Virus record (IMG/VR): IMGVR_UViG_3300025086_000110 | Coordinates: 1 to 34,514 of that record | Length of the DNA: 34,514 nt | DNA from: a virus | Strand: one strand, 5' to 3' | Part shown: positions 4,255 through 34,507 of the stretch, one piece after another | Numbering within the stretch: the stretch's first letter is position 1 | How the letters are laid out: each line of letters starts with the position of its first letter | Translations under genes and position numbers: made by a program | The notes under the pieces: generated by a model | The model's database searches: none | The model's input: only the letters and a program-made list of their open reading frames with translations | Told to the model about the DNA's origin: nothing

Positions 4255-5460
4255 TTATCCTAATGCTATTGCAAGAGCTGTTGGATCGTCAGTTACAGCT
4301 ATGGTTACTGTATCTGTTGCACTACCTGTCGTGGTAATACCTGATCCTGCAGCGATTGTTAGTGTGTTTCCGTTTGAAATAGTTTGACTTGAACCGCTTG
4401 ACCCTGCAACAGTAAAGCTCGTCATACCACTATCTATTTCTACAAAAGAACTTCCGTTAAATACACGAAGTCTATTCGTGCTAGTATTAAAATATAAATC
4501 ACCTGTGGTTAAGGCATCACCATCATTGTCTACTGATGGGTCTGAAGATTTTGATCCTAAATAAGTATCATCAAAAGCATCAGCACTCGCTGCCGCTGCT
4601 GTGGCACTAGCTGCTGCTGCAGTTGCAGAACTCGCTGCATTAGTTGCTTGTGTCGATGCAGTGGATGCAGATGTAGAAGCATTGGATGCTTGAGTGGATG
4701 CTGAAGAAGCTGAACTTGCTGCGGCTGTAGCCGAACTAGCTGCTGCGGTTGCAGATGTAGCCGCTTCACTAGCTTTTGTCGTTGCTGTAGCAGCATCGAC
4801 TAATAAATCATATTTTGATGCGTTGGCATTTGTTGTTAATGGTTCTGAGCCTGAAGATGTATGAGCTGTATTAATCATGAAGATATTGTTTGTCGATGTA
4901 TCTTTAACAATATCTCTTACAACATAAGCTGTACCAGCAGACCAATTACCTTTGTTAGCACCAATTTCTGATGTAACATTTAATTCACCTGCACTATCAA
5001 ATCCTAAAACTTTACCAGCTCTATCTGTTGCAGAGTTTGTAAACTCTGTTGAGGTCATCGTGTTTGTTCTTGATAATTTAATCGATCTATCTAACTCTTC
5101 TTGAACTTGTTGAAGAGTCATCATAGCACGATCCAAACCCTCTTCGTGTGATTCCGCAGGGAATGGATCATTGGCGATATAATCAATCGCCTGTGTTTGC
5201 GGAACTGCTCTTCTCAACACAACTGTTTCACCTGAAGCAGGTATATTTCCTGATGTGAAAGTAACGCTTCCACCATTTGAGTTTCCTGCACCAGCCACTG
5301 TATAATGCGTGGTGATTGTTTTAACAGTCTCAATGCCTGTTGATGATCTTATGATAACCTGTAAGTCAGAGTCCGCAAAAATTTTAAATGTATAATTAAA
5401 GGCAGTTGTTGAGCCATTGCCTGAATATGAATTTTTTACTGTAACCGAAGATATTGTCAT
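4255..5460 (-). CDS. T7-type tail fibre base protein (401 aa)
   Basis: Residues 1-135 match the N-terminal virion-attachment domain of T7 gp17-like fibres: the Y-S-G-N-G-S-T-T-A-F-N-Y start, V-V-L-R-R-A-V-P-Q-T-Q, D-Y-I-A-N-D-P-F-P-A-E-S-H-E-x-x-L-D and a helical T-L-Q-Q-V-Q-E-E-L-D-R-S. Residues 215-290 are an almost pure Ala/Ser/Thr stretch with regular small-residue spacing, a predicted triple coiled coil. Residues 300-345 hold a short domain with G-D-L-Y-F-N-T-S-T-N-R-L-R-V-F. It ends without a receptor-binding domain, which fits a base to which separately encoded tips attach. It shares its ATG base with the stop of the 1155-aa protein. Confidence 0.9.
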   Translation of the reverse strand: MTISSVTVKNSYSGNGSTTAFNYTFKIFADSDLQVIIRSSTGIETVKTITTHYTVAGAGNSNGGSVTFTSGNIPASGETVVLRRAVPQTQAIDYIANDPFPAESHEEGLDRAMMTLQQVQEELDRSIKLSRTNTMTSTEFTNSATDRAGKVLGFDSAGELNVTSEIGANKGNWSAGTAYVVRDIVKDTSTNNIFMINTAHTSSGSEPLTTNANASKYDLLVDAATATTKASEAATSATAAASSATAAASSASSASTQASNASTSASTASTQATNAASSATAAAASATAAAASADAFDDTYLGSKSSDPSVDNDGDALTTGDLYFNTSTNRLRVFNGSSFVEIDSGMTSFTVAGSSGSSQTISNGNTLTIAAGSGITTTGSATDTVTIAVTDDPTALAIALG

Positions 5461-26218: not shown

Positions 26219-26323
26219 AAATCCTTTCTGTTGATAGGTTCTATTACCAAAAAAGTTATGCACAATCAAGGGTTATTTAGGTATAGACATAGTGGAAAAC
26301 TAGGTATATATAGAAAGAAAACA
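26219..26323. promoter_or_regulatory. Divergent control region between Cro-like and exonuclease genes
   Basis: The leftward promoter is well formed: TTGATT (bases 26,269-26,264 on that strand) and TAATAG (26,246-26,241) with a 17-base spacer, starting about 15 bases before the Cro-like ribosome site. Rightward, TAGACA (26,284-26,289) and TATATA (26,307-26,312) are 17 apart but leave a very short leader before ATG 26,324, so the true rightward start may lie elsewhere. The related segments TAGGTATAGACATAG and TAGGTATATATAG may be operator half-sites. Confidence 0.6.
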
Positions 26324-27217
26324 ATGGATTTAAAAAAACTATACGAAAAAACAAATGGCGGTCTAGGTCAAGATCACTTTAGCTTTACGCAGTTAAGCAA
26401 GATGAAACCTATTGGTATGTGGATTGTGGATTACTTTGTTAGAGATCAGAAACGTAGAAGAGCTGACAAGAAAAACTTTAAACTAGGTTATGGTTCAGTG
26501 TCAGGCAACGTAGCACAAAGATTAATTGGTAAGTATGTATTTAAAGGTGCAGAAAGAGAAGAAATAAAAAATAGAGATTACAATACTATATTTAATTACG
26601 AGTATGATCTTTATAAAAAAGAAAGCTACGATCAAAGAGATGATAAGATTAAAGATATGGTTGTTGATAAATTACACGACACCATTAAGAATGTATTAAA
26701 AGTAGTTAAAGAAATATTTGGCAGCAAATCTTTGATGTGTGAAAGATATGTATCAATGTCTCCACAAGGTTTAGGTATAGACATATTGGGTCGTATAGAT
26801 TGGGAGTCAGATAAATTATTTGCAGAACAAAAATCAAAACCACCTAGTGCAAGAGGATTAGATTTAGATAATATAAAAATTTATACACAAAAACTACCTA
26901 CTGAACCTGATCCTATTAACATAAACCAAGTAGCCTTTTATAGATTAGCTACAGAGAAACAACCTTTCTTGTTTTATGTAAATGAAAAAGATTATATTAT
27001 TTTTGACAATGAACACCCAGCTTTGTGGGATGATCATTTAGAATATTGTTATAGCGAAATGGTGCAGAAAGCTATGACTATACAGAGATTACTTGAAGTA
27101 AGTAATGGCGACCCAGTGTTGATGGCAGGTCTTGTAGAGAAACCTGATCTATCACATTGGACTATGAAAGATGCTAGTGCAGATCAACTAGATGTAATAA
27201 GACAACTATGGGGGTAA
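26324..27217 (+). CDS. PD-(D/E)XK exonuclease, RecB/lambda-exo type (297 aa)
   Basis: Start at ATG 26,324 after AGAAAG; an upstream in-frame ATG at 26,231 lies within the divergent control region and is unlikely. Nuclease core: E130, G-I-D at 141-143 and R-I-D at 147-149, E-Q-K at 158-160 and Q-V-A-F-Y at 192-196. This is the order E ... D ... E-x-K ... Q-x-x-x-Y of RecB/Cas4-like exonucleases that make single-stranded ends for annealing. The pairing with the annealing protein two genes on makes a Red-like module. Confidence 0.85.
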   Translation: MDLKKLYEKTNGGLGQDHFSFTQLSKMKPIGMWIVDYFVRDQKRRRADKKNFKLGYGSVSGNVAQRLIGKYVFKGAEREEIKNRDYNTIFNYEYDLYKKESYDQRDDKIKDMVVDKLHDTIKNVLKVVKEIFGSKSLMCERYVSMSPQGLGIDILGRIDWESDKLFAEQKSKPPSARGLDLDNIKIYTQKLPTEPDPININQVAFYRLATEKQPFLFYVNEKDYIIFDNEHPALWDDHLEYCYSEMVQKAMTIQRLLEVSNGDPVLMAGLVEKPDLSHWTMKDASADQLDVIRQLWG

Positions 27218-27218
27218 T

Positions 27219-27551
27219 GTGAGTAAGATAATTGATATAAAATTATATCATGTAAAAAATAAAATAAATCTTTTAAAAGTAGTTTCTTCTACATTAAAAG
27301 AAAAAGGAACTGTTCATTGTTTAAAACATATAGAAGTTTTAATTGAAAAACTTTTGATTGATAAAGATAAATTAAAAAAAAAACAAGACTCAAAAGAATC
27401 TATCAAAAGATTAAATTCTATAGGTTGTTCAACGGCTATCATAAGCAATACAAGAGCTAGTGAATACCAAGAACCTATCAATAAACTAGCATATAGAGTG
27501 GTAGACAAAGCTAAATTTTTAAGAAGAAAGGGGTTTGTAAATGAAAGATAA
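27219..27551 (+). CDS. Helical hypothetical protein (110 aa)
   Basis: GTG start at 27,219, just after a GGGGG ribosome site at the end of the exonuclease gene. The sequence is Lys/Leu/Ile-rich and helical (V-L-I-E-K-L-L-I-D-K-D-K-L-K-K-K) with I-G-C-S-T-A-I-I-S-N-T-R-A-S-E-Y near the centre. It overlaps the annealing-protein start by 11 bases, which ties it to the recombination module. No domain recognised. Confidence 0.6.
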   Translation: MSKIIDIKLYHVKNKINLLKVVSSTLKEKGTVHCLKHIEVLIEKLLIDKDKLKKKQDSKESIKRLNSIGCSTAIISNTRASEYQEPINKLAYRVVDKAKFLRRKGFVNER

Positions 27552-28149
27552 AATAGATAGAGTAAATGAGTTATGCAGAAGAGACGGAGTATATAAAAAC
27601 CTTACAACAGGTCAGACAACTGTTTCTTTGTGGAGCAAGATAAAATATTTTAGACAAGTCTTTGGTGATCAACTTGGGTTTGATGTATCAGTTATGGAAC
27701 AAGAAGATTATTACATTGCTAAGTGCAAGATCATCGCTTATGATCCTGAACGAGTGTTAGCTACAGGACATTATAAACAATTTAAAAAGAGAAACGGCAG
27801 CTACATACAAGGTGCTTTGCCTATGGCAGAAAGTTTCTCTATTTCACGAGCTTTAAGTTTTCTTGGTGTGTTGGATAAAGACATTACCTCCCTCGAAGAG
27901 TTAGAATCTTTAGGTATACCAACCACCAAGGAAGCTAAAGACACCCTAAGTACAAAGGGTGTACCCGTCAAACAAATCGTAGAGGAGTTAAAGAAAGCTC
28001 CACATGAAACAAGATTAAATCATCTTCGTTATCATGTGTATAGACCTACATTTGTTGAGACACAAAAAAATCATCCAAGAGATTTTAAATTGCTAGACAA
28101 TGCTTTCAAATCTAGGATGAACTTAATAACTAAACAGGAGAAAATATAA
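27541..28149 (+). CDS. Single-strand annealing protein, Rad52/ERF-like (202 aa)
   Basis: Follows an AAGAAAGGGG ribosome site. Residues 30-112 hold the core: W-S-K-I-K-Y-F-R-Q-V-F-G-D, a strand region I-A-K-C-K-I-I-A-Y-D-P-E-R-V-L-A-T-G-H-Y, and A-L-P-M-A-E-S-F-S-I-S-R-A-L-S-F-L-G, which matches the A-x-x-x-x-E-x-x-x-x-x-R-A-L-x-F-L-G signature of ERF/Rad52-like annealing proteins. C-terminal part (about 125-200) is helical and basic. It should anneal strands exposed by the exonuclease, supporting concatemer formation and recombination among related phages. Confidence 0.78.
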   Translation: MKDKIDRVNELCRRDGVYKNLTTGQTTVSLWSKIKYFRQVFGDQLGFDVSVMEQEDYYIAKCKIIAYDPERVLATGHYKQFKKRNGSYIQGALPMAESFSISRALSFLGVLDKDITSLEELESLGIPTTKEAKDTLSTKGVPVKQIVEELKKAPHETRLNHLRYHVYRPTFVETQKNHPRDFKLLDNAFKSRMNLITKQEKI

Positions 28150-28469
28150 TGGATAAGATATATATAAAACTTATACCTAATCAAGACAAACAGCCAGGTG
28201 ATAACAGACCTAGCTTTGTTGCACCTATTAATCCTAAGTCGCCACCAGGTAAGACTTGGAGAATAGGAGCTAAGATAGGAAACACTTGGTATAATCAAGC
28301 AGCGTTTGATGATACGCAAGAAGATGGAACACCTACAGGTGGATTGAATGTTGTACTTACACCAAGCGATAGTAATACATCACAATCAGGTAGTGGGGGT
28401 AAGCCACAGCAATTTGGTGGGTATAATAAAAAACCTTTTCAAAGAACTGGAACTTATGGTAGAAGATAA
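28149..28469 (+). CDS. Possible single-stranded DNA-binding protein (106 aa)
   Basis: Overlaps the annealing-protein stop (TAATG). Residues 1-70 look like a small beta-barrel: I-Y-I-K-L-I-P-N, R-P-S-F-V-A-P-I-N-P-K-S-P-P-G-K-T-W-R-I-G-A-K-I, then L-N-V-V-L-T-P. Residues 74-106 are a Gly/Ser/Gln-rich tail with basic and aromatic residues. The place next to nuclease and annealing genes and the fold-plus-flexible-tail design suggest SSB function. There is no acidic C-terminal tip as in bacterial SSB, so this is uncertain. Confidence 0.55.
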   Translation: MDKIYIKLIPNQDKQPGDNRPSFVAPINPKSPPGKTWRIGAKIGNTWYNQAAFDDTQEDGTPTGGLNVVLTPSDSNTSQSGSGGKPQQFGGYNKKPFQRTGTYGRR

Positions 28470-28470
28470 A

Positions 28471-28556
28471 AGAGCTTAGCTCAATCGCTACGAGACGGAG
28501 TTTTAGCCATCCCCTTGGCTTCCTTTCGAGTTGTTTTTCTCTGTCTCGTGGCTCTA
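28471..28556 (+). ncRNA. Structured RNA element before the DUF3310 gene
   Basis: In a run where genes otherwise overlap, these bases form a 14-bp helix with two G-U pairs (GCTACGAGACGGAG at 28,487-28,500 with CTCTGTCTCGTGGC at 28,539-28,552). It encloses a 5-bp hairpin (AGCCA 28,505-28,509 and TGGCT 28,516-28,520). A short hairpin (GAGC-TTA-GCTC, 28,472-28,482) lies in front, and AGAGC could instead pair with GCTCT at 28,551-28,555, giving two alternative folds. The next gene has no visible ribosome site. It could be a regulatory leader or a processed small RNA. Confidence 0.6.
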
Positions 28557-28560
28557 AATT

Positions 28561-28770
28561 ATGACTGATGATGTATATAAAAAACAAATAGGCGGTGATC
28601 ATTATTCCATGCCTATTCAACCAGCAGAATTTATAAACAAGAACAACATTCCGTTTGCCGAAGGCAATGCTATTAAATATTTATGTAGGCATTCAAAACG
28701 AGGAAAAAAACAAGACTTGCAAAAGGCTATCCATTATATAGAAATGGCAATCGAAAGAGACTATGATTGA
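28561..28770 (+). CDS. DUF3310 family protein (69 aa)
   Basis: The family pattern is complete: Y-K-K-Q-I-G-G-D-H-Y near residues 5-14, then P-I-Q-P-A-E-F-I, N-N-I-P-F-A-E-G-N-A-I-K-Y-L-C-R-H-S-K-R-G-K-K-Q-D-L-Q-K-A, and I-H-Y-I-E-M-A. DUF3310 proteins are frequent in phages and have been linked to nucleotide metabolism by annotation, without proof that I know of. No Shine-Dalgarno site precedes its ATG; the structured element above ends only eight bases before it. The end overlaps the next start. Confidence 0.88.
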   Translation: MTDDVYKKQIGGDHYSMPIQPAEFINKNNIPFAEGNAIKYLCRHSKRGKKQDLQKAIHYIEMAIERDYD

Positions 28771-29011
28771 CAAAACGGAAAAAAAGTATATAAGATACCG
28801 AAATGGCGAAGCAAACTTTACTTATATAGAAAAGTTTGATGACGTTGAGAAGGCTGCTGACCCACAGAGTAAAGGTGAGTTTGTAGAAGTAAAAGTTAAT
28901 AATATTAAATTTGACTTTACAAAAGTGAAGGAGGAAAATGGTCGAGAACCAAATGGTAGAGATCAAGAAGAACCTGCAAAAGACGAAGGACTTGCAAAGA
29001 AAGAAAAGTGA
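28763..29011 (+). CDS. Acidic hypothetical protein (82 aa)
   Basis: Begins MIDKTEKKYIRYRNGEANFT inside the end of the DUF3310 gene. The first 55 residues look folded (E-F-V-E-V-K-V-N-N-I-K-F-D-F); the last 27 are charged and disordered (K-E-E-N-G-R-E-P-N-G-R-D-Q-E-E). The disordered tail is exactly the part overlapped by the next gene in another frame. Function unknown. Confidence 0.6.
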   Translation: MIDKTEKKYIRYRNGEANFTYIEKFDDVEKAADPQSKGEFVEVKVNNIKFDFTKVKEENGREPNGRDQEEPAKDEGLAKKEK

Positions 29012-29114
29012 ATTGTATGTCAGACATTTGCAGAAAGCTAACAAGTTGAAGGTTGAAAGTTATAATCTTCATTTGAAAGTTGCTGATCTTACAGACAAAC
29101 TAATGAGAGCTTAG
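28938..29114 (+). CDS. Small coiled-coil protein overlapping its neighbour (58 aa)
   Basis: Preceded by AAGGAGG, one of the best ribosome sites in the window, which is why I accept it despite a 74-base overlap with the preceding gene. It starts MVENQMVEIKKNLQKTKDLQ and is helical to the end (V-E-S-Y-N-L-H-L-K-V-A-D-L-T-D-K-L). Basic with leucine heptads, so likely a dimer. It could work with the DnaA-like protein that follows, but this is only adjacency. Confidence 0.65.
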   Translation: MVENQMVEIKKNLQKTKDLQRKKSELYVRHLQKANKLKVESYNLHLKVADLTDKLMRA

Positions 29115-29117
29115 CTC
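29106..29117 (+). repeat. Second copy of AGAGCTTAGCTC
   Basis: The same 12 bases occur at 28,471-28,482, both times at a gene end: right after a stop codon there, across the stop codon here. Each can fold as GAGC-TTA-GCTC. They may be transcript-end hairpins or recognition sites. Confidence 0.6.
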
Positions 29118-29140
29118 TTATAAAATAAAAAACAACAAAG

Positions 29141-29156
29141 AGTTGTGAGAACAACT
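29141..29156 (+). promoter_or_regulatory. Hairpin with GNRA loop before the DnaA-like gene
   Basis: AGTTGT and ACAACT pair perfectly around GAGA, a stable tetraloop type. It stands just before the AAGGGA ribosome site of the next gene, so it may set its translation level. Confidence 0.55.
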
Positions 29157-29166
29157 AAGGGAAGCT

Positions 29167-29709
29167 ATGCACTTTGAAATAATAGATAAGAAAAAAAAAC
29201 AAATTAAGCTAGGCATGAAAGCTATCATGTATAGAGAACTATCACCAAGAGAACTACAGATATACAGAACAGGATTTAAAAATGGCTATCGTATGGCAGA
29301 AGCTCATCTTGTTTTTAAAAGCCAACAACTAGCAGATAGAATGAAGATGAAAGATGATCGTGAACAAATAAAAAAAAGAGTAGATGATAAACATCCTGTT
29401 GGCTATGAAACATTTAGTAATATTGTTAGAGTTGTAGCTAATCATTTTTGTATTAGTCCTCAAGAAGTTTATAGTAGAAGAAGGTTAGCTTATATTGTAA
29501 AGCCGAGAAGTGTTATTATAAATTATTGCCTGGAACATTTTAATATATCAACACCAAAGCTAGGAATGTTTTTTAATTTTGATCACTCAACTGTCATTCA
29601 TCATAGAAGGCAGAAAGTAAAGCAAGTTGGTATATGGAAACCTTTAGAATTAGTTTGGCAAGACTATGAAAAAATTAAAAAGGAATTAGTTAAGTCCTTG
29701 CGTAGTTAG
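29167..29709 (+). CDS. DnaA domain-IV-like DNA-binding protein (180 aa)
   Basis: Residues 80-150 match the C-terminal DNA-binding domain of bacterial DnaA: V-V-A-N-H-F-C-I-S-P-Q-E-V-Y-S-R-R-R, then V-K-P-R-S-V-I-I-N-Y-C-L-E-H-F and the signature F-D-H-S-T-V-I-H-H-R-R at about 138-148. There is no AAA+ ATPase domain. The first 75 residues are basic and helical. It could bind DnaA boxes to start phage replication with host enzymes or to block host initiation. It lies at the end of the rightward replication run, overlapping the convergent gene by 20 bases. Confidence 0.8.
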   Translation: MHFEIIDKKKKQIKLGMKAIMYRELSPRELQIYRTGFKNGYRMAEAHLVFKSQQLADRMKMKDDREQIKKRVDDKHPVGYETFSNIVRVVANHFCISPQEVYSRRRLAYIVKPRSVIINYCLEHFNISTPKLGMFFNFDHSTVIHHRRQKVKQVGIWKPLELVWQDYEKIKKELVKSLRS

Positions 29710-33898: not shown

Positions 33899-34507
33899 TT
33901 ATAAAACTCCATACATATCTACTGTACCTGAATCTATGTTTCCTGAACTAAATTTAAAATCTAAAGCTGTTATTGGAGCTGTCGTATTAAAATATCCACC
34001 TACAGAATCATCTTGTGCGTGGTTATCTTCATTATTACCACTTGTTCTTGCAATAAAATTTTTTACAAACACAGAACTTGATGGTTCAAAAAGATGTAAA
34101 AAGCCAGAAACACAAGCATCATTATCATTACTTACTTGATATGTAAGAGGTTGATAATCTGTACTTTGTGCTAAATCATAAGAACTTTTATATGACAACC
34201 CTGTTTCTGAGTCACTTTCGCTATGGTAAGCATCAAAAAATGTAGTTGTTTTTGTTATATTATACGAATGACTTGAGGAATCATCAGACCCATTAAAACT
34301 AAATACAACATTATCTGTTGCTGGGTGTATATTATTAAAAAAAAATATATACTCTTTATAGGTGCTATCTATACCTGATGTAATGCTTAAACTTGATGAT
34401 GAACTAGCAGTTGATCTTGATATAAATTTTAAATTACCTAGTCCTGTTATGCTACCTACTGCTGTTGCATCTTTTACTGCTCTGTTATTTAATTTAATTA
34501 TACTCAT
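33899..34507 (-). CDS. Tail-fibre tip paralogue B (202 aa), alternative version of 202-810
   Basis: Same length as paralogue A and the same start up to residue 16 (MSIIKLNNRAVKDATA) and end (S-G-N-I-D-S-G-T-V-D-M-Y-G-V-L). In between, residues about 65-125 and 150-170 differ strongly: for example F-S-F-N-G-S-D-D-S-S-S-H-S-Y replaces the A version. The shared scaffold Y-I-F-F-F-N-N-I-H, S-G-F-L-H-L-F-E-P-S-S-S-V-F-V-K-N-F-I-A-R is kept. Variation limited to surface-type loops is what receptor choice would select. It is followed by its own chaperone gene, as A is. Confidence 0.85.
   Translation of the reverse strand: MSIIKLNNRAVKDATAVGSITGLGNLKFISRSTASSSSSLSITSGIDSTYKEYIFFFNNIHPATDNVVFSFNGSDDSSSHSYNITKTTTFFDAYHSESDSETGLSYKSSYDLAQSTDYQPLTYQVSNDNDACVSGFLHLFEPSSSVFVKNFIARTSGNNEDNHAQDDSVGGYFNTTAPITALDFKFSSGNIDSGTVDMYGVL

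Follow-up and report, generated by a model that had tools for sequence, protein, structure and literature searches.

Among the intercistronic RNA structures of phages, the RNase III sites of T7 are long hairpins situated between early cistrons. For T4, the excerpted text of PMC3014915 describes the gene 32 operator as a pseudoknot in the gene's own leader, with an adjacent U-rich single strand, in a transcript for replication and recombination. Conserved structured RNAs of marine phages, some of them located before genes, include manA, wcaG and PhotoRC-II (PMC2864571, in excerpt) and the phage glutamine riboswitches (PMC9004378, also in excerpt).

The window analysed here is a complete 34.5-kb virus record (34,514 nucleotides) of an HTVC010P-type pelagiphage. 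Pelagiphages of this group infect SAR11 bacteria and are very common in the ocean. The terminases of the window and of Pelagibacter phage HTVC010P are 90% identical; with the other best-listed phages of the type the identity is 87-89%. The dnaA-like gene of the window matches 19 phage records, all of them from Pelagibacter. Similar tail-fibre-like proteins (MSIIKLNNRAVKDAT...) were noted near both ends of the record (202-2013 and 33899-34507), as if a linear record had been cut inside a repeated gene family.

In the recombination/replication operon of HTVC010P-type pelagiphages sits a structured RNA element whose 14-pair helix, P1, lies between cistrons as the T7 hairpins do; it differs from the T7 sites in carrying an invariant loop on a freely varying stem. 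The likeness to the T4 gene 32 operator (PMC3014915, in excerpt) extends to the kind of transcript and to the U-rich single strand, which a protein that binds single strands would naturally recognise. In T4 the structure takes the form of a pseudoknot within the gene's own leader, whereas the pelagiphage element is a hairpin that follows the candidate gene, beyond its stop codon, with no pseudoknot supported. Unlike manA, wcaG, PhotoRC-II and the glutamine riboswitches, the pelagiphage element has no match in Rfam and is not tied to one downstream family. No description of it was found in the excerpts covered of PMC12753301, PMC2864571, PMC9004378, PMC3014915 and PMC6811365, nor in those of the pelagiphage, marine-phage RNA, riboswitch, gp32-operator or translational-coupling literature, the main HTVC010P-type genome paper (Du et al. 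2021) lying outside this scope; term look-ups in PMC10504331 and PMC2704228 gave no occurrence. We rate the element as a new RNA family within an already known general kind, the structured RNAs that phages carry between cistrons. Its unusual features are the invariant pyrimidine loop and the exchangeable downstream gene, and the combination of a variable but paired stem with a constant loop points to an undescribed control element.

Fold of the element in the window

The element occupies positions 28487-28552 of the plus strand, as defined by folding and covariation, and all of its parts are given in plus-strand coordinates. The two strands of P1 (28487-28500 and 28539-28552) form 14 base pairs including two G-U pairs. 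P1 is followed by a run of four U (28501-28504), which comprises four to eight U in relatives, and by the 5-bp helix P2 (28505-28509 paired with 28516-28520), whose apical loop UCCCCU (28510-28515) contains most of a constant CCCUU motif that extends into the first base of the P2 3' strand. A free pyrimidine-rich strand of 18 bases (28521-28538), ending in GUUGUUUUU with its constant GUUUU, leads back to P1. This fold, which a sequence-only reading of the window had proposed, was reproduced by folding of 28471-28556, with a minimum free energy of -34.4 kcal/mol and a z of -5.40; none of 200 dinucleotide shuffles was equally stable, and the antisense strand of the element reached only -25.4. 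Among 3,444 segments of 86 nt on both strands only two folded better, both opposite a tail gene. These two segments start at 4581 and 4721 (4581-4806, plus strand), opposite a gene for a tail protein with Ser/Ala/Thr repeats, and their stability is probably a composition effect. The gap that holds the element is 91 nt long and is the largest of the rightward run 26231-29709, the next being 52 nt (29115-29166), in agreement with the same reading, which had called it the only sizeable gap of that run.

The leading hairpin that had been proposed upstream of the helix, GAGC-UUA-GCUC, is present at 28472-28482 (plus strand; 28472-28475 paired with 28479-28482) and is designated hairpin A. It has 4 bp and follows the upstream stop codon in the window, while in relatives it is usually longer and encloses that codon, which lies inside it in 48 of 60 distinct stretches (repeated stretches counted once; 13 of 83 rows had no stop by the rule used). 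Its mean folding z was -2.3, -1.9 and -3.5 in the three subtypes. The suggestion that hairpin A competes with a closing pairing in a two-state switch fared less well. The pairing of AGAGC with GCUCU is possible in the window, but of the 53 window-type contexts 24 distinct ones have a leading hairpin of the GAGC type, and only 3 of these 24 keep the pairing; the switch was rejected because its second state is not conserved.

Searches for other explanations of the gap were negative. Rfam 15 gave no match at or above the gathering score in the window, only chance matches outside the element when the region was searched at E up to 10, and in five relatives a single sub-threshold match that is not at the element. 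ARAGORN found no tRNA or tmRNA gene in the window. A short gene spanning the gap was considered and rejected: no plus-strand ORF of at least 40 aa crosses it in the window, the frame running on past the upstream stop is shut, as judged by eye, by the UAG of UUUUAG in relatives such as L003 and L004, and loop lengths in relatives differ by 1-2 nt. A TTG-initiated ORF of 87 aa on the minus strand (28357-28620) does span the gap, but the same length differences disfavour coding.

Two further small structures were noted downstream. The palindrome GAGAGCTTAGCTCT at 29105-29118 resembles the leading hairpin at 28471-28482 and ends a 58-aa ORF (28938-29114), again at a stop codon. The hairpin AGTTGTGAGAACAACT at 29141-29166 lies immediately 5' of the dnaA-like gene's ribosome site, AAGGGA.

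Conservation and distribution among relatives

For the stem, covariation was evaluated in 83 sequences (80 distinct) that we picked from the loci to span the variety seen. All 14 pairs of P1 show changes on both sides. About 94% of P1 cells are paired (93.1-94.1%), compared with 70.8% after shuffling, and the covariation score is 0.561 against 0.202 ± 0.009 for shuffled and at most 0.157 for slid versions, these counts leaning toward the structure as the alignment (A6) was fitted to the model. An unfitted check on 15 distinct arm pairs, picked by loop pattern alone and compared in fixed register, agrees with this result: 92% of positions were paired, against 63% (sd 5%) when arms were swapped. 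The 98.7% pairing of the descriptor set is biased upward, because the descriptor itself demanded a stem. The pairing is conserved in relatives, and the proposal of a structured RNA ahead of a gene without a ribosome site is borne out by strong covariation. On the plus strand, G-U cells outnumber A-C cells by 13 to 2 out of 150, with both A-C cells in one out-of-register row; together with the better folding of that strand, the frequent G-U and nearly absent A-C cells favour an RNA transcript as the structured molecule. G-T pairs are tolerated in single-stranded DNA as well.

The inner helix is less constant. Within the window type a single pair of P2 varies, 44 of the 80 rows have no letters for P2 at all, and the larger P2 helices of the HTVC010P subtype appear by eye to use other pairing around the same apical CCCUUUC. 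As judged by eye, loci L445, L471 and L498 join the UUUAGUUGUUUU strand of the window to a CCCUUUC apex and a P2 of GGC/GCC, a mixture by which they bridge the types. At the level of the sequences compared, P2 is optional, P1 covaries and the pyrimidine loop is constant. All 62 distinct loops contain CCCUU and open with a run of 4-8 U, which starts no more than four bases into the loop, and 61 of them have GUUUU or a close variant at the 3' side; some of the loci were found through the loop pattern, while the gene-anchored loci were not.

Several pairing partners for the loop were tried and rejected, the comparisons being made by eye. Two long-range pairings, one between the free-strand UUGUUUU and AAACAA (Lys-Gln) codons and the other between the P2 loop and GGUGG codons in DUF3310, were promising in a single type. 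The AAACAA codons vary, however (AAGCAA, AAGCAG), and AUCCCC and AUUCCC loops do not fit GGCGG or GGUGG; both pairings were rejected also because the element precedes genes without that motif. A role of the loop as an anti-Shine-Dalgarno sequence that sequesters the start of the next gene had a 9-nt match in Lederberg; it is not general, since the window-type and HTVC010P-subtype starts have no Shine-Dalgarno sequence.

In cultured HTVC010P-type phages a hairpin likewise occupies this gap, downstream of the homologue of the small gene; its stem differs from that of the window and its loop is related. Covariance model R1 was built only from window-type sequences, being restricted to 18 of the 36 in the first alignment (A1) because that alignment misplaced some stems, and it finds 12 of the 13 other-type loci supplied (E 8e-5 to 0.015; the miss is Greip). 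Model R2 places one copy at the syntenic position in all nine cultured phages examined, of which eight (all but HTVC010P) had already been given to R1 and seven of those had fed R2; on the whole HTVC010P genome it gives one match.

The element was reached from three anchors, namely the loop pattern, the upstream gene and the dnaA-like gene. The loop-only pattern found 96 stretches in viral contigs; in the genome collection it had no match in its exact window-type form. With the upstream gene as anchor, a long hairpin is present in 90 of 91 distinct gaps (168 stretches), and R2 matches 94 of the 95 loci supplied, the exception (L315) ending too early. The third anchor, a DnaA domain-IV-like protein at the end of the rightward run (29167-29709, plus strand), does not adjoin the element and had not been used in the earlier searches; from it, R2 matches 73 of 79 newly fetched loci, one further fetched locus, L016, having been found before. 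In the six misses the sequence extends no more than 773 nt beyond the anchor on the upstream side and stops near or short of the expected place; in the 12 loci measured in which the element was the best helix, 611-718 nt separate its end from the anchor. A descriptor scan of the collected DNA gave 252 hits in 251 loci. The small gene lies directly upstream in 247 of the 252 hits, a constant linkage to one gene as in a T4 gp32-type operator, the product of that gene being here a candidate binder; of the other five hits, four are truncated on the upstream side and one is a chance match in AT-rich DNA.

Outside the phage group the element was not detected. HTVC104P, a phage of another type that has DUF3310, does not have it by R2, and none of 56 DUF3310 contigs outside the group fell below E 0.05, one (L030) being marginal at E 0.25. 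Two scans with a relaxed loop pattern returned mostly chance among the matches listed: E below 1e-9 was reached only by L213, L217, L224, L231 and L242 among the 87 new loci listed from these scans and the remainder, and 15 further listed matches (E 0.067 to 4.5) were discarded as chance.

Genes on either side of the element

The constant neighbour of the element is the small upstream gene (28149-28469, plus strand; stop codon 28467-28469), and it is the downstream gene that changes. By annotation the small gene is the third in a series of nuclease, annealing protein and small protein, the second matching an Erf-like PHROG. Proteins that bind ssDNA are usual after a nuclease and an annealing protein. 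From this operon position, and from the labels that other annotators gave to the neighbours, it is possible that the 106-aa product is an ssDNA-binding protein, a likeness by position only. It has no match in Pfam, PHROG or PDB, and its predicted models are poor (mean pLDDT 50.7 and 54.3), too poor for a fold search; an assignment as an OB-fold ssDNA-binding protein has no support from families or PDB sequences. Similarity of the element follows that of the upstream gene slightly more closely (Spearman 0.43) than that of the downstream gene (0.33), and in some pairs, such as L025 and L128, identical elements have different neighbours on both sides. In L498 the annealing-protein position (835-1410) differs by eye from that of the relative L445 while the neighbours are alike; the small gene and the element are kept there although the annealing-protein gene looks different.

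Downstream of the element in the window lies a DUF3310 gene (28561-28770, plus strand; PF11753, 7.8e-9) that gives way to other families in relatives. Its ATG at 28561 comes just past the gap without a Shine-Dalgarno sequence, as the sequence-only reading had stated. When 102 distinct combinations of element and neighbours were sorted, partly by eye, the downstream gene was DUF3310-like in 33 of 34 window-type and 43 of 44 subtype-i combinations and DUF6378-like in 20 of 24 of the HTVC010P subtype, the remainder being other genes. Family searches identified DUF3310 in L316, DUF6378 in L253 and L405, and Dam-type/PHROG DNA methyltransferases in L409, L395 and L416. The 66-aa downstream protein of L348 matches only PHROGs of unknown function; a 'MazG-like' label for it was an impression and was dropped. 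Identical elements stand ahead of quite different proteins in L342 and L348 and in L004 and L140, and, as far as the sequences go, the element is indifferent to which gene comes next. That next gene position resembles an exchange slot, occupied by DUF3310, DUF6378, DNA methyltransferases, the 66-aa protein or a 33-aa peptide. In several contigs (L019/L355 and L103/L156) the element is separated from the gene that follows by some 65-70 nt of inserted sequence, which has a GGGACA...TGTCCC pairing of its own, and a 15-aa ORF was seen within this insert in L355.

The distance from the end of P1 to the ATG is 6-19 nt, or 24 nt in two contexts, and no start was found for three hits. Shine-Dalgarno sequences are present at none of 36 window-type and none of 17 HTVC010P-subtype downstream starts, and at 15 of 23 subtype-i starts. 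Genome-wide, about half of the genes have one (28 of 64 in HTVC010P, 25 of 48 in the window).

Possible roles of the element

Its place between a stop codon and a start codon argues for action in cis, and the element is very probably a cis-acting structured mRNA element. A stem that is free in sequence and a loop that is unchangeable form the pattern of a recognition site. We tentatively favour an intercistronic element that acts in cis through a pyrimidine-rich protein-binding loop, with the upstream product as the leading candidate binder. P1 would serve as a scaffold presenting the loop to an RNA-binding protein; the small upstream protein, when free of ssDNA, would bind its own mRNA at the element, and the bound protein would slow translation of the downstream cistron or cistrons and/or alter decay of the message, by analogy with T4 gp32. 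We infer this mechanism from conservation and gene order. That the phage's own small protein is the binder is, by the same analogy, a possibility of rather lower confidence. It is favoured as the only constant partner of the element and by a position where ssDNA-binding proteins are usual, and against it count the lack of a family or structure match, the poor models and a linkage that is only slightly tighter on the upstream side.

Use of the element by ribosomes is a less probable account, yet one nearly as good as the protein-operator reading. Hairpin A and P1 would compact the stretch of 70-110 nt between stop and start, the loop would offer an S1-mediated standby site to the 30S subunit, and the downstream gene would be started by termination-reinitiation without a Shine-Dalgarno sequence. 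Ribosomal protein S1 prefers pyrimidine-rich RNA. The upstream stop codon inside or beside hairpin A, the short distance from P1 to the ATG regardless of the gene that follows, and the 53 distinct window-type and HTVC010P-subtype starts lacking a Shine-Dalgarno sequence are all consistent with such a device. The subtype-i starts that do have one are not, however; roughly every second gene of these genomes does without one anyway, and a very stable stem 9 nt ahead of an ATG would usually hinder the 30S subunit. It is unlikely that the element is an mRNA processing site, at which RNase III would cut P1 and leave hairpin A as a protective 3' end of the upstream message. A long uninterrupted intercistronic helix that is indifferent to the downstream gene, with a second hairpin at the 3' end of the upstream message, would suit this purpose, but the invariance of the U-run, CCCUU and GUUUU would be left unexplained; RNase III sites are not known to need an invariant loop.

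Action in trans as a small RNA, whether separate or excised, we regard as improbable; the separate small RNA, which the sequence-only reading had held to be equally possible, is rated less likely given the short distances to the stop codon on one side and the start codon on the other. The C/U-rich apical loop could pair, for instance through CCCUU, with purine-rich ribosome sites such as the GGG-type sites before the annealing-protein and dnaA-like genes (by eye, a generic complementarity). Against this stand the fixed place of the element between stop and start codons, the absence of a terminator-like site at 28487-28552 (the four of the region are elsewhere) and a number of promoter-like sites in the region, 22 against 14.7 ± 4.1, that is not far above chance. 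The tail of alphaproteobacterial 16S rRNA is CCUCCUUUCU, and the element loop is close to it. A more speculative version, to which we assign little probability, is a small ribonucleoprotein common to all HTVC010P-type phages, cut or transcribed from the recombination operon, whose loop would mimic an anti-Shine-Dalgarno sequence or act as a protein sponge and retune translation of the phage operon or of the SAR11 host during infection. Similarly low is the likelihood of a hairpin of single-stranded DNA serving as a replication, priming or packaging signal in the replication module: its location among recombination and replication genes and the tolerance of ssDNA for G-T wobbles, which makes it compatible with the G-U bias, speak for it, but its position follows the stop and start codons and GC skew follows the gene strand only. 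The DnaA-box pattern occurs about as often as chance predicts, both in the window and in HTVC010P, with boxes neither enriched nor clustered at the element, and a replication origin there was rejected. Least likely of all is the proposed leader of DUF3310 that senses a ligand of nucleotide metabolism. A compact fold that adjoins a start codon and has an invariant loop, the DUF3310 genes that neighbour it in two of the three subtypes, and the riboswitches known in other marine phages (PMC9004378, in excerpt) are in keeping with a riboswitch, but the downstream genes do not form one pathway (DUF3310, DUF6378, DNA methyltransferases, the 66-aa protein, and ORFs of 33 and 15 aa), the alternative pairing is not conserved, and Rfam has no match. 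As the downstream gene varies while the small upstream gene stays, with the element kept ahead of other families and found below E 0.05 in none of the 56 DUF3310 contigs outside the group, this idea was not upheld.

For the biology of these phages, an RNA at a fixed place with a free stem and a frozen loop implies a conserved contact, RNA-protein or RNA-RNA, that is made during SAR11 infection and has escaped annotation. The element is present in nearly every member of the group long enough to show it, and it may serve as an RNA handle for finding diverged members. It offers a concrete, testable regulatory site in a cultured phage-host pair, HTVC010P on HTCC1062.
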